Source of the DNA: Candidatus Solibacter usitatus
GTDB lineage: Bacteria; Acidobacteriota; Terriglobia; Bryobacterales; Bryobacteraceae
NCBI GenBank assembly: GCA_016191645.1
Contig: JACPVQ010000116.1
Span: 1 to 44,814 of the forward strand
DNA length: 44,814 bases
Direction of reading: 5' to 3'
Position numbers and translations under genes: made by a program. Shown here one piece after another: positions 30,730-34,856 of this stretch. Within the stretch, counting starts at the first letter, position 1. Every line of letters begins with the position of its first letter. The notes below the pieces were generated by a model. The model was not told the DNA's origin and did no database searches. It was given only the letters and a program-made list of their open reading frames with translations.

Positions 30730-32835
30730 GTGCATCGATTTCTACGCTCCTCACATCCACTCTCCTGGTGGATGGACGGAGTTCTCGTCTTCGTTCTCGC
30801 GGCTTGTCTGATTGCACCCATTTTCAAACTCGACTACAGCGACAAGTGGGCTTCTATTGAGAGCACCTTCATCGCCGACGCGCGATTCCTGAAGGATCAC
30901 TGGCCTGCTCCACGCTGGCAGCCGCTTTGGTACACGGGCACGCGGTTCGATTACATCTATCCGCCCGCGCTGCGATACGGAACGGCGGGTCTGGCCAAGG
31001 CTATGAACGTCGGCACGGCGCGCGCTTATCACATCTACGTGGGATTCTTCTACGCTCTAGGCATTGCAGGCGTGTATGTTCTGGCGCGCACCCTCGGCGG
31101 CTCGCGAGGCTTCGCGCTAGTGGCTGCATTGTTGGTCGCCACAGTTTCTCCGGGGTTCCTCGTCTTCCCGGAGATTCACCGCGATGCGAAGGGATCGTGG
31201 TCTGAGCCGCAGCGATTGGGCGTGCTGGCGCGGTACGGCGAGGGTCCTCACATGAGCGCGCTTGCCGTGCTCGGGTTTGCCATCGCCTTTTCCTTGCGCG
31301 CTCTGCGGCAGGGGAGCTATGGTTGGATCGCGGCCGCGGCGTTTGCATGCGCACTCGCCGTTTCCAATAATTTTTACGGCGCGACGGCTCTCGCGATGCT
31401 GTTCCCCATCGTTCTGTGGGCCTGCTACGTGACGTCGAGCGACAAGCGCGTTTTCAAGCGGGCCGCGGCCATTGTGGCTCTCAGCTACGGATTAACCGCG
31501 TTCTGGCTGGTCCCTTCCTACTTCGCCATCACCGTGGACAACATGCGATTCGTGAGCGAACGCGGCAACCGCTGGTCCATGTGGGTGACGGTGCTGCTGC
31601 TGATCGTTTATTTGAAAGTGTCCGAACGGTGGGCAAGAAACCGGCCGCATCTACAGACGCCTGTCTTCCTCTTGGGCGCGGTAGCGCTGCTTACTTTGAA
31701 CGTGGTGGGGAATCGCTTCTTCGAGTTCCGCGTGATCGGCGAGCCGTTTCGCATGATTCCCGAATGGGACATGTTCGTACTGCTGGCCGCCGCGGAAGGC
31801 CTGAGAATGTTGTGGGGCAGATCTCCAGATCTGCGAGGCGGTCTCCAGACCGCCTCTGCCGAGGCGGGGCGGGATCTGGAGATCCCGCCGCAGGTCTGGA
31901 GACCTGCCCCACACAGCACTTCAGAGTTTAGGAGCACCTTATTCAAGCGAATCGCCATCGTAATTGTGTTGCTGATTGCGCTGCGCGGCGTACGGCGATA
32001 CATCGGAGGCGGCTGGAAGATCTTCGTGCCGGGCGGCAAGGTTGAGGACCGCATTGAGTTTCAGGTTACCGACTGGCTGGCAAAGAACATGCCGGACGCG
32101 CGTGTCTACACGAATGGCACGATACGCTTCTGGTTCAACGCCTGGTACGATCTGGCGGAGTTGGGAGGAGGATCGGAACAAGGGCTGCTCAATCCTACGC
32201 CGCAACCCGCGACGTGGATTCTCGGCATGAGCGAAGACGCGCAGTACAGCATTGCATGGCTGATTTGCACAGGCGTCGACGCAGCCTTCGTCGCCGACAA
32301 GACCAGCGCCGAGCACTACAAAGACGTTTCGCATCCACAGAAATTCGTCAACGTGCTGCCAGTGGCTTTTGACGATCGCAAAGGGAATCGCATTTACAAA
32401 GTGCCGCGCCGTTATCCGGGGTTGGCGCGCGTGGTTTCCACAAAAGATCTGGACGCGCTTCCCCCATTTCCGGAGGACCCCGGCGCGTGGCTGCTGTATC
32501 AACTTGCGGACGTATTGGAAAAAGGTCCCGATGCGCCGGCGTCCACGCGATGGGAAGGCACCGAGCGTTTATGGATTCACGCACCCATCGCCGCTGGACA
32601 AACTCTATTCGTGCAAGTTGCCTATGACCCGGCATGGCGCGCCTACAGCGGAGCGCAGCCGCTGACGGTGACAAAATCCCGGCTTGGGTTTATGCGCATC
32701 GACGCGCAGCCCGGCAACCACGATGTCCGGTTGGAATTCGAAACGCCGTTGGAGAATCACGTGGGGCGCGTGGTGTTCGCAGGCTCCGCCGGATTGTTCC
32801 TCTGGATGGGATTCCGCAGGAGGAGGATTCTGTGA
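30730..32835 (+). CDS. Multispanning GT-C-like membrane protein (PTPS-related/YfhO-like) with in-frame palindromic insertion
   Basis: A 701-residue protein with about ten membrane helices and a C-terminal beta-rich domain (LFVQVAYDPAWRAYSG). WYTGTRFDYIYPPALRYGTAGL and RYGEGPHMSALAVLG match the membrane proteins grouped as 6-pyruvoyl-tetrahydropterin-synthase-related. It is paralogous to the next gene: VLLAAAEGLRMLW aligns with LALAAAEWLRVGW, and TNGTIRFWFNAWYDLAELGG with SGGLRFRLHSWFDLNQTNG. About 35 residues (361-395), encoded by a palindromic element, sit between these landmarks and are missing in the paralogue. It starts three bases after the DegT-like gene. The role is probably in envelope glycan assembly, which is inference. 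Confidence 0.85.
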   Translation: MHRFLRSSHPLSWWMDGVLVFVLAACLIAPIFKLDYSDKWASIESTFIADARFLKDHWPAPRWQPLWYTGTRFDYIYPPALRYGTAGLAKAMNVGTARAYHIYVGFFYALGIAGVYVLARTLGGSRGFALVAALLVATVSPGFLVFPEIHRDAKGSWSEPQRLGVLARYGEGPHMSALAVLGFAIAFSLRALRQGSYGWIAAAAFACALAVSNNFYGATALAMLFPIVLWACYVTSSDKRVFKRAAAIVALSYGLTAFWLVPSYFAITVDNMRFVSERGNRWSMWVTVLLLIVYLKVSERWARNRPHLQTPVFLLGAVALLTLNVVGNRFFEFRVIGEPFRMIPEWDMFVLLAAAEGLRMLWGRSPDLRGGLQTASAEAGRDLEIPPQVWRPAPHSTSEFRSTLFKRIAIVIVLLIALRGVRRYIGGGWKIFVPGGKVEDRIEFQVTDWLAKNMPDARVYTNGTIRFWFNAWYDLAELGGGSEQGLLNPTPQPATWILGMSEDAQYSIAWLICTGVDAAFVADKTSAEHYKDVSHPQKFVNVLPVAFDDRKGNRIYKVPRRYPGLARVVSTKDLDALPPFPEDPGAWLLYQLADVLEKGPDAPASTRWEGTERLWIHAPIAAGQTLFVQVAYDPAWRAYSGAQPLTVTKSRLGFMRIDAQPGNHDVRLEFETPLENHVGRVVFAGSAGLFLWMGFRRRRIL
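31811..31913. repeat. 103-bp nested-palindrome element inserted in frame in a gene
   Basis: Four palindromes follow each other: GCAGATCTCCAGATCTGC (31817-31834), GGCGGTCTCCAGACCGCC (31837-31854), a 22-bp one with a central GG (31868-31889), and GCAGGTCTGGAGACCTGC (31890-31907). All share the core TCTCCAGA or its complement. The ends TGTGGGGCAG and CTGCCCCACA are inverted, so the whole unit can fold into one branched cruciform. CCGCCTC/GAGGCGG form a central stem. It has no stop codon in any of the six frames. The first 24 bases recur exactly at 44788-44811. Confidence 0.95.
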
Positions 32836-34856
32836 CGCGCCGTCCGGCAATCGCGGTGGCGCTATTGGCACTGGCGTTGTTCGCCTTGAACATTTGGCTC
32901 AATCTGCCCCTCTTCCAAGGTGGCGCGCAACCATATCGCGGATCCATTGAAAGCGGCTACGCGGGAATCTCCCGATTTTTAGCGCAGCATCCCAACCCTT
33001 GGGGATGGAACGCCAACGCATACGGCGGCATCTCCACGCATCACCTGTATCTTCCGGGCCTGCCGTATACAGTGGCTCTTTGGATGCGGCTGCATCCGGA
33101 CTTGAGCGCGCTGGAAGCCTATCGACAGGTGACGGCAACGTTCGCGTGCTTTGGTCCCGTGAGTTTGTTTCTATTTGCTCTGTACGCAACCCGCAGCCGC
33201 GCGTGGGCCTTGGCGGCGGCCATTGCCTATACGTTCTGCTCGCCCTCCTACGATCTGTTTCAAACCGTCGACAAAGACCGCGGACTGCTTCCCATTCCGT
33301 GGCGATTGCACGTGATGGTGAAGTACGGCGAAGGTCCGCACAATGGCGGTCTCGCGCTGTTGCCGCTGGCGCTGATCGGAGTGTGGGAAGCGGCGAAGGA
33401 CCGCGGCTTCCGAAGAGTTTTTGCCGCGGCGTTGGGACTCGCGGCGGTGGCCTTGACGCACTGGATTGCCGCTTTGGCCCTTGCTGTTTGCTGCACGGTA
33501 TTGCTAGCGGTCTATCTGATCCGGCGCGCGGAAACGTTCCGGCATGCAAGAGTAGCGATGGCGGGATTGCTCGCCTACGGCCTGGCATGCTTTTGGCTCA
33601 CGCCGACCTTCATTCGCGCCGTGGCTCTCAACTGGCCGCAGGACGCGTTCGGTTATACTCTCGCCAACAGACAGAGATTGGCGTTGCTGCTGATTGCCGC
33701 CGTGTCGGCATTGCTTTGGTGGCTGTTCCGCAAGGAGTTTCAGCACCGCTATCTTTGCTTTGTCACCATCTGCTTTTTTATTTTCGCGGCGCTGACTGAG
33801 GGCCACTACGCGCACGGCGTCGACGCCATTCCCGAATCGCGGCGCTATGCATTGGAGATGGAACTCTTCCTGGCCCTGGCTGCCGCAGAATGGCTGCGCG
33901 TTGGCTGGAAGGCAGGCGGCGAGGTTAACCGCTTCTGCGTGATCGCGGCATCTTTGCTGTTGCTATCGAGCGCCTTTCCGCAAGCGCGACGGTTTGCCGG
34001 CGAAGGCTACTCCGCATGGAAGCTGCGCCCGGAAAAGGAGACGGCCGAATATCGCGTCGCAAACTGGCTGAACGAACGGACTCTTTCCGGCCGCGCCTAC
34101 GTCTCCGGCGGACTTCGCTTTCGTCTTCACTCGTGGTTCGATCTCAACCAGACGAATGGGACATTCGATTCCGGCGTCCTTTCGCGAACGCCGTTAGACT
34201 TCGACTACCGTATTCGATCGGGAGCCGGATTGGACCCCGGCCACGAAGCAGAACAGACGCGCTGGATCTTGCAGGCGATGGGCGTCGAATATGCCGTCGT
34301 GCACGGGCAGGAATCCGAAGAATACTACAGAGACGTGAAGCGGCCGGAACGTATAGAGTCGTCTCTGGAGAAAGTCTATGAGCACGGCGGCGACCGCGTG
34401 TATCGCGTCCCCTATAGGGGCCTCGGCTTTATCCTTTATGAAGACGATCTGCCCCGAAGCGGCGCTACGCGGCATCTGGAAACATTCGTCAAAGCATTGG
34501 AGAACCCCGGCCGCGCCGTTGCCGGCTTGCGTTGGGAAGGGCAAAACCGTTTGTGGATCGAGGGTGGTGAAGTGCCCCCGGACCACGCTGTTACGCTCCT
34601 GATGAACTATGACCCCGGTTGGCGCGCCACACAGGACGGCCAGCGCTTAGTAGTAGATAAAGACAACCTGGGTTATATCCGCTTGCGCACCATCCAAGGC
34701 AGGCCCGCAACCGTACTAATGGAATATGGCCCAACCGGGGAACGGATAGCGGCGCTGATTCTCACTGTCCTCTGTTGGGTGTGGGCCCTGGGGAAGTTGC
34801 TGCGTGAGAGAAGAGTGCGCAGCGGGAACCTGCATCCTATGTCCGGCGTCCAATAG
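32832..34856 (+). CDS. Multispanning GT-C-like membrane protein (PTPS-related/YfhO-like), paralogue of the preceding gene
   Basis: The GTG at 32832 overlaps the previous stop as GTGA and has AGGAGGA six to eleven bases upstream, giving 674 residues. The N-terminus is a membrane helix (AIAVALLALALFALNIWL), followed by NPWGWNANAYGGISTHHLYLPGLPYTVALW and KYGEGPHNGGLALLPLALIGVW, the same landmarks as in the preceding protein. About ten helices and a C-terminal beta-rich domain (TLLMNYDPGWRATQDGQRLVV) follow. It lacks the palindromic insertion of its neighbour, with only about ten residues between AAAEWLRVGW and the next helix. Substrate unknown. Confidence 0.85.
   Translation: MTRRPAIAVALLALALFALNIWLNLPLFQGGAQPYRGSIESGYAGISRFLAQHPNPWGWNANAYGGISTHHLYLPGLPYTVALWMRLHPDLSALEAYRQVTATFACFGPVSLFLFALYATRSRAWALAAAIAYTFCSPSYDLFQTVDKDRGLLPIPWRLHVMVKYGEGPHNGGLALLPLALIGVWEAAKDRGFRRVFAAALGLAAVALTHWIAALALAVCCTVLLAVYLIRRAETFRHARVAMAGLLAYGLACFWLTPTFIRAVALNWPQDAFGYTLANRQRLALLLIAAVSALLWWLFRKEFQHRYLCFVTICFFIFAALTEGHYAHGVDAIPESRRYALEMELFLALAAAEWLRVGWKAGGEVNRFCVIAASLLLLSSAFPQARRFAGEGYSAWKLRPEKETAEYRVANWLNERTLSGRAYVSGGLRFRLHSWFDLNQTNGTFDSGVLSRTPLDFDYRIRSGAGLDPGHEAEQTRWILQAMGVEYAVVHGQESEEYYRDVKRPERIESSLEKVYEHGGDRVYRVPYRGLGFILYEDDLPRSGATRHLETFVKALENPGRAVAGLRWEGQNRLWIEGGEVPPDHAVTLLMNYDPGWRATQDGQRLVVDKDNLGYIRLRTIQGRPATVLMEYGPTGERIAALILTVLCWVWALGKLLRERRVRSGNLHPMSGVQ

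Follow-up and report, generated by a model that had tools for sequence, protein, structure and literature searches.

The window, i.e., the whole 44,814-nucleotide stretch analysed here (contig C10 of Candidatus Solibacter usitatus), carries a gene for a multi-helix membrane protein followed by a paralogue on the same strand (Table 1). The first of these genes, referred to below as the host gene, starts with GTG and stays unbroken across a 103 bp nested palindrome that lies in frame within it. Its product matches the Pfam YfhO profile (5.9e-9, residues 622-673); an NCBIfam profile search of the protein gave no match. The palindrome spans residues 361-395, with the first and the last codon partly made of host bases, so the gain to the protein is about 34 amino acids, placed between two helices. 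The end of the contig falls inside another copy of the same element, and elements of this kind may break the assembly.

Table 1. Features of the host locus and of the palindromic element (positions in the window).
Feature	Position	Strand	Evidence or remark
Host gene, 701-codon multi-helix membrane protein	30730..32835	+	ORF; C-terminal YfhO Pfam match; AF2
Paralogous membrane-protein gene lacking the element (natural control)	32832..34856	+	ORF; alignment
Inserted palindromic element of probable REP/REPIN type, 103 bp	31811..31913	+	sequence; copy comparison; missing in 29 aligned homologues
5' foot TGTGGG including the GTGG tetranucleotide	31811..31816	+	TGG 31813-31815 read as Trp362
Hairpin H1, GCAGATC-TCCA-GATCTGC	31817..31834	+	covariation across copies
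Hairpin H2, loop TCCA	31835..31856	+	sequence
Spacer, short, H3 and H4 missing; RAYT gene site in the C62 copy	31857..31868	+	copy comparison
Hairpin H5, loop TGGA	31869..31888	+	sequence
Hairpin H6, inverted H1-type copy	31890..31907	+	sequence
Inverted foot CCCACA	31908..31913	-	sequence
Second element copy, truncated by the contig end	44788..44814	+	sequence

The palindrome cores of H1, H2, H5 and H6 read, in this order, TCTCCAGA, TCTCCAGA, TCTGGAGA and TCTGGAGA. The window contains TCTCCAGA or its complement 11 times (1.11 expected) and TGTGGGGCAG three times (0.07 expected). The whole element folds end to end, at -46.5 kcal/mol as single-stranded DNA (z -9.4) and at -85.3 kcal/mol as RNA (z -11.3), and none of 200 shuffles was as good in either case. 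GTGG is located 1 nt from a 7-bp stem with a TCCA loop, which is the foot-hairpin arrangement of a REP (defined here by GTAG or GTGG at a distance of 0-2 nt from a hairpin that has at least 7 pairs and a 2-5 nt loop). Rfam yielded ten matches at E≤1, all under the gathering scores and mostly to microRNA models, and these were dismissed as generic hairpins.

The element belongs to a large repeat family. Its 24-nt terminus has 374 matches in the 4.47-Mb assembly at up to three mismatches, and the reversed control has none, so the element is not confined to the host gene and the contig end, the outcome that was to count against the original prediction. A similarity search of the assembly returned at least 77 matches at E≤1e-3 (40 of 304 candidates scored). 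Fuller copies have six hairpins, are about 155 bp long and often carry further inverted repeats outside. At 103 bp the window copy is the shortest among 50 complete copies, none of the others having this length; a separate 98-bp copy with one mismatched foot is also on the copy list. All seven stem pairs are present in 123 of 159 tag-anchored windows. In 26 distinct tag-anchored sequences with the CTCCAG core, taken from 48 distinct windows, the H1 stem covaries: 20 both-side cells were counted against 7.0 in shuffles, and 86.8% of positions pair, compared with at most 37.5% when the stem is slid. A weaker measure gave four pairs changed on both sides against 2.3, a value reached by 18 of 500 shuffles. 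The outer repeats GCGGCTGTGCTGCT, CATTTCCCGAGTTTG and AATCGTGATGAAAACCGA flank copies at, e.g., C9:53, C16:9340 and C250:33938 and are inverted on both sides of some of them, while several outer-repeat copies without the element continue directly as TGTACTACTAG. When the outer repeats were compared within the genome as candidate target sites, none proved to be a clean empty site.

Comparison with homologues indicates that the 103 bp are an insertion in the host gene. A protein match at E≤1e-30 was found in 69 of 121 family genomes (the source genome counted), and 29 returned loci, all from other genomes, were aligned. The insert residues are missing in all 29, and the loop is 49 residues long here versus 8-24 there; it has 23 and 20 residues in the two same-genus proteins (L122 and L124). 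In L141, one of these homologues, the bases directly before the site are ambiguous, which makes it uninformative alone. The adjacent paralogue, too, aligns without insert residues. The sequences on both sides of the element are halves of a single gene, as seen in an end-to-end alignment with the congener G098. In the AF2 model of the host protein (mean pLDDT 85.8; input of the host protein and 27 homologues) helix 339-362 stops where the insert starts; the helix that follows, transmembrane-like in its length, starts at 397. Across residues 361-400 pLDDT is 45-64, mostly below 50 at 367-391; low values in the insert are expected anyway, because the loop is absent from every aligned relative. 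The added loop of about 34 residues is probably disordered. The original prediction thus holds in its description of the locus: the nested palindromes with a common core and inverted ends agree in coordinates, cores and feet, the ORF, the homologues and the AF2 model bear out an in-frame insertion between two helices of an intact 701-codon gene, and the paralogue does lack the insert.

The tryptophan at the junction is kept in 25 of the 29 homologues. TGTGG is present in 17 of them, but in neither of the two same-genus ones, which read CTCTGG. In REPtrons the cut is presumably directed by the foot, and in the available part of the source GTGG variants of one REP were cut at CA or CC (PMC8266576). 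For this reason the conserved tryptophan and TGTGG would fit insertion at an existing GTGG, an idea weakened by the CTCTGG of the same-genus homologues. Leu-Trp and Met-Trp codons often yield TGTGG anyway. Because its length of 103 bp is not divisible by three, the complete element, if inserted cleanly, would put the gene out of frame.

The location of copies was studied in 87 joined stretches totalling 1,579,018 bp (35% of the assembly). Some stretches were chosen for containing matches, so densities in this sample are biased, location shares less so. Out of 112 clusters found, fragments included, nine footless single cores were dropped and 103 kept. Eighty-four are intergenic, nine lie at a stretch edge (within 60 bp of its end), four overlap a gene end, three are inside a gene near its end and three are deep in ORFs. 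Away from stretch edges the intergenic share is therefore 84/94, though 90.3% of the sample is called coding; together with the 374 termini this gives the many, mostly extragenic copies by which REPs are recognised. The genes around 82 intergenic clusters are convergent in 41 cases, on the same strand in 39 and divergent in two, compared with 72, 185 and 93, respectively, for all 350 gaps of at least 100 bp.

The three clusters deep in ORFs, out of 94, are the window copy, C151 and C146. C151 is a second in-frame loop insertion in a membrane protein, with 42 residues missing in 10 of 10 aligned homologues; its upstream part is weakly coding and fails the codon-score test (2.7), so this case was accepted by homology alone. 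The window and C151 copies share one reading frame, in which GRSPDLRGG follows ..LW or ..VW. At C146:11449-11603 (locus L293) an outer-membrane barrel match stops at profile position 816 of 838, 22 positions early, and the barrel gene runs in frame through the element into the next ORF, possibly a gene fusion or damage. Ninety-two clusters have one or more open frames and lie more than 350 bp from stretch ends; in two of them (the window copy and C146) an open frame is bordered on either side by coding-like sequence. Continuation of an open element frame into a downstream coding stretch was seen in 18 rows (17 clusters, including C151). N-terminal overlaps given by our codon-score gene caller were not counted as insertions, because called starts may be misplaced within the element. 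At C6:14916, C65:827, C199:7952 and C20:15762 elements lie in frame just upstream of signal-peptide-like starts, and the C6 element might supply the start codon of the downstream gene.

All six frames of the window copy are open, as had been predicted, a property common to 11 of the 50 complete copies. Complete copies have on average 4.62 open frames out of six versus 2.28 in first-order Markov resamplings. Random elements built on the hairpin plan of the window copy, however, already average 4.23 open frames, and 31.5% of them are open in all six; this plan has 103 bp and four hairpins, so the comparison with longer copies is only rough. Six open frames are not special for palindromes of this plan. 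Selection for six open frames was rejected on this control, which preserves the hairpin structure; the Markov resamplings alone would have been misleading. The suggestion that stop-free frames were the means of spread into genes is not supported.

Two Y1 transposase matches, 51% identical to each other, are present in the genome, on contigs C62 and C167, and the former is a part of an element copy. This copy of 719 bp consists of H1-H2, the gene at 72-650 and H3-H6, with feet at 18 and 736, so that, as in a REPtron, a transposase gene is flanked by the same repeats (C62:18-736). The C62 protein scores 83.1 bits against the NCBIfam model of REP-associated tyrosine transposases (RAYT; NF047646, cut-off 80) and the C167 protein 90 bits against the same cut-off. 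Both proteins are under the NCBIfam IS200 cut-off (NF033573, 30.1 bits versus 55); on this score, and with only two Y1 genes in the genome, an IS200/IS605 insertion sequence was rejected. The C62 RAYT has 192 aa, Y1_Tnp as its sole Pfam match, the motifs NHVH, WQ and YIAANP and an arginine at the spacing of E. coli R104 (NHVH, WQ and the arginine placed by eye). Its nearest named relatives come from Acidobacteria MAGs, some of them Bryobacterales, in agreement with the host group assumed in the original prediction.

Spacers were compared with the C62 unit without demanding any spacer letters. In the 12 nt after H2, 82 gene-less copies match the unit at a median of 9/12 positions, while further in the same spacers are near chance (median 6/21). 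On the other side, 52 copies follow the unit over most of H3 and H4 (agreement of about 70-88% at the majority of positions), and their agreement is 4-37% in the 12 nt before H3. Thus the copies have their ends in common with a transposase-bearing unit and homology to both gene boundaries, as is required of MITEs, and on this alignment the C62 unit minus its gene is the best reading of the short copies.

The family is patchy among relatives. Two congeners (G042 and G098) have no element terminus and no Y1 transposase at E≤1e-6. Of 250 genomes in the class, 4 contain the terminus at up to two mismatches (336 matches in the source genome, 13 in G319, 11 in G119 and one in G302); at up to three it is found in 7 of 61 family genomes, the source counted. 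Genome G048 contains 33 related termini, most of which have GGCC stems, and no Y1 transposase match at E≤1e-6; either its REPs are an orphan population or the gene was missed. RAYT relatives were scanned for inverted flank matches in 41 of 80 fetched loci, chosen by us: the longest match contains GT[AG]G in 18 of the 41 (12 with GTGGG, 6 with other GTAG/GTGG), lacks it in 8, and in the remaining 15 there is no inverted match of 12 nt.

Considering all this, the 103-bp element is very probably a non-autonomous palindrome of REP/REPIN type, a gene-less relative of the C62 RAYT unit whose insertion in the host gene has been tolerated. The RAYT, an HUH/Y1 enzyme, would recognise the foot and hairpin on single-stranded DNA, cut and then rejoin the foot-hairpin DNA, and new copies would settle mainly in intergenic regions. 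One copy would have landed at the helix end of the host membrane protein; with no stop in the frame used, the product gains a loop before the next helix, which the protein would tolerate. The C62 gene, found once and on another contig than the window copy, presumably moved it to this target and made the present junction, and we expect the host protein to be still functional.

Palindromic elements of Rickettsia (RPE) are defined by lying mainly inside genes, in frame, and the original prediction drew this analogy. A protein-coding palindrome with its niche inside genes, kept open by selection, could be argued from the reading frame common to the window and C151 copies, the read-through in C146, the 18 rows (17 clusters) with a frame open into a downstream coding stretch and the excess of open frames over Markov resamplings (4.62 versus 2.28). 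The analogy nevertheless fails on location, as 84 of 94 clusters are intergenic, mostly in convergent or same-strand contexts (41 and 39, with two divergent), and only three are deep in ORFs, one of them ending a barrel gene early; random hairpin-plan elements come close to the observed openness (4.23, on a rough comparison). We regard this explanation as very unlikely. Hardly more probable is a host-useful RNA structure, such as a terminator or 3'-end stabiliser, for which mobility would be secondary and the landing in the host gene accidental. The very stable RNA fold and the avoidance of divergent gaps (2 of 82 clusters versus 93 of the 350 gaps no shorter than 100 bp) would suit it, but promoter avoidance is equally expected from selection on insertions, both congeners do without the element, and one family member bears a transposase gene. 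As for an ancestral protein loop or an assembly artefact joining pieces at a repeat, the contig end within a copy and the nine of 103 clusters within 60 bp of a stretch end would speak for an artefact. Against it are the flanks, which form one gene end to end with G098, and the 103-bp length, unique among 50 copies; the ancestral loop, named beforehand as a refuting outcome, is contradicted by the 29 aligned homologues without the residues. We give this pair almost no credence.

Returning to the RAYT-derived palindrome, the question is whether the gene-bearing unit itself moves. Among 30 listed pairs of RAYT loci with DNA homology we chose seven for comparison of their flanks. In six the unit matches and the flanks have no protein match at E≤1e-3; in the seventh (L191/L192) the neighbourhood is common on both sides of the RAYT gene. 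The palindromes at the RAYT gene differ between L191 and L192. In L218/L220 the right edge of homology is the inverted end. In L233/L238, L234/L236, L213/L263, L244/L254 and L251/L256 homology extends past the gene, which is what sites held in common would show. We tentatively propose, while considering it rather doubtful, that some RAYT units of Acidobacteria are self-moving transposons made of the gene and inverted multi-hairpin ends, with REPIN-like palindromes as their MITE derivatives. Homology past the unit in the other listed pairs lowers this probability, and an old rearrangement may have taken place instead of unit movement. If the proposal were true, the units would form an extant link between IS200-like elements and the REPtrons of Proteobacteria, which are described as immobile, and would occasionally write a stop-free loop into a protein. 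As gene-bearing and gene-less copies occur in one genome and congeners have neither, the mobility of the unit is testable.

As to the origin and spread of REPINs, Bertels and Rainey proposed that they derive from the ends of IS200-like elements, and the RAYTs they saw seem not to be self-moving, according to the available part of that paper (PMC3116915). As far as the accessible portions of three papers describe REP/REPIN systems with a RAYT, i.e., REPtrons (PMC3116915; PMC6006769; PMC3733652), these are similar to the present family in the GT[AG]G foot by a short hairpin, the inverted doublets with a spacer, the mostly intergenic copies rare in divergent gaps, the patchy occurrence between species and the single-copy RAYT flanked by the same repeats. 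Here, unlike there, a unit has up to six hairpins, the foot is lengthened to TGTGGGG, and the RAYT lies between the short copies' own ends, a transposon-MITE relation. TIRtrons, with a RAYT-like (TIRYT) gene between inverted repeats some of which are repeated in the genome, share that arrangement and include a sharply defined group in Acidobacteria, e.g., in Koribacter versatilis, in the sections available (PMC3733652; Di Nocera et al., 2013). The printed TIRYT motif GGGGWSAS, compared by eye with GTGGGGCAG of our element, has no exact fit. Table 1 of PMC6006769 assigns 20 of 26 TIRYT proteins to subclass 2.1, whose marks are an HTH at the C terminus and YIELNP or Y[IV]HLNP; by this description the 192-aa C62 protein with NHVH, WQ and YIAANP seems to differ. 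Subclass 2.4 of TnpA-REP, with double-foot REPs, is similar in having the foot at both ends, in-frame loop insertion (there in tnpA genes) and a median length of 194 aa versus our 192, but its motif is YIxNNP, in the available text (PMC6006769). Aspartate and arginine of the C62 protein at the positions of E100 and H101, assigned by eye, recall subclasses 2.5 and 2.7 as these are outlined there.

Palindromes in frame inside proteins are described, in the available part of the source, for intragenic REPs of Opitutus terrae and Thauera and for RPE-4 and RPE-6 of Rickettsia conorii, where dimers or groups add 20-30 residues and larger clusters 43-82 (PMC3733652). The window copy resembles them as an in-frame palindrome within a protein; our family differs in that just 3/94 clusters are deep in ORFs. 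What these papers present thus already includes REPs lying in frame within genes, REPtrons, and tyrosine transposases of Acidobacteria between inverted repeats (PMC3733652; PMC6006769; PMC3116915). The present family is a good new example of a transposon-MITE pair, and its in-frame copies, together with the insert-free homologues, are examples of a mobile palindrome adding a protein loop. A literature search by titles and abstract openings, with many subscription papers outside its scope, found, among the papers listed, none that describes this family or copies located inside genes of Acidobacteria.

The second RAYT gene of the genome (contig C167, locus L154, 1977-2525) lies beside a different palindromic element at about 2606-2716. 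This palindrome shares the TGTGGGGCA start with the element described above but has TTCA as its loop, and represents a second REP-like family in the genome.
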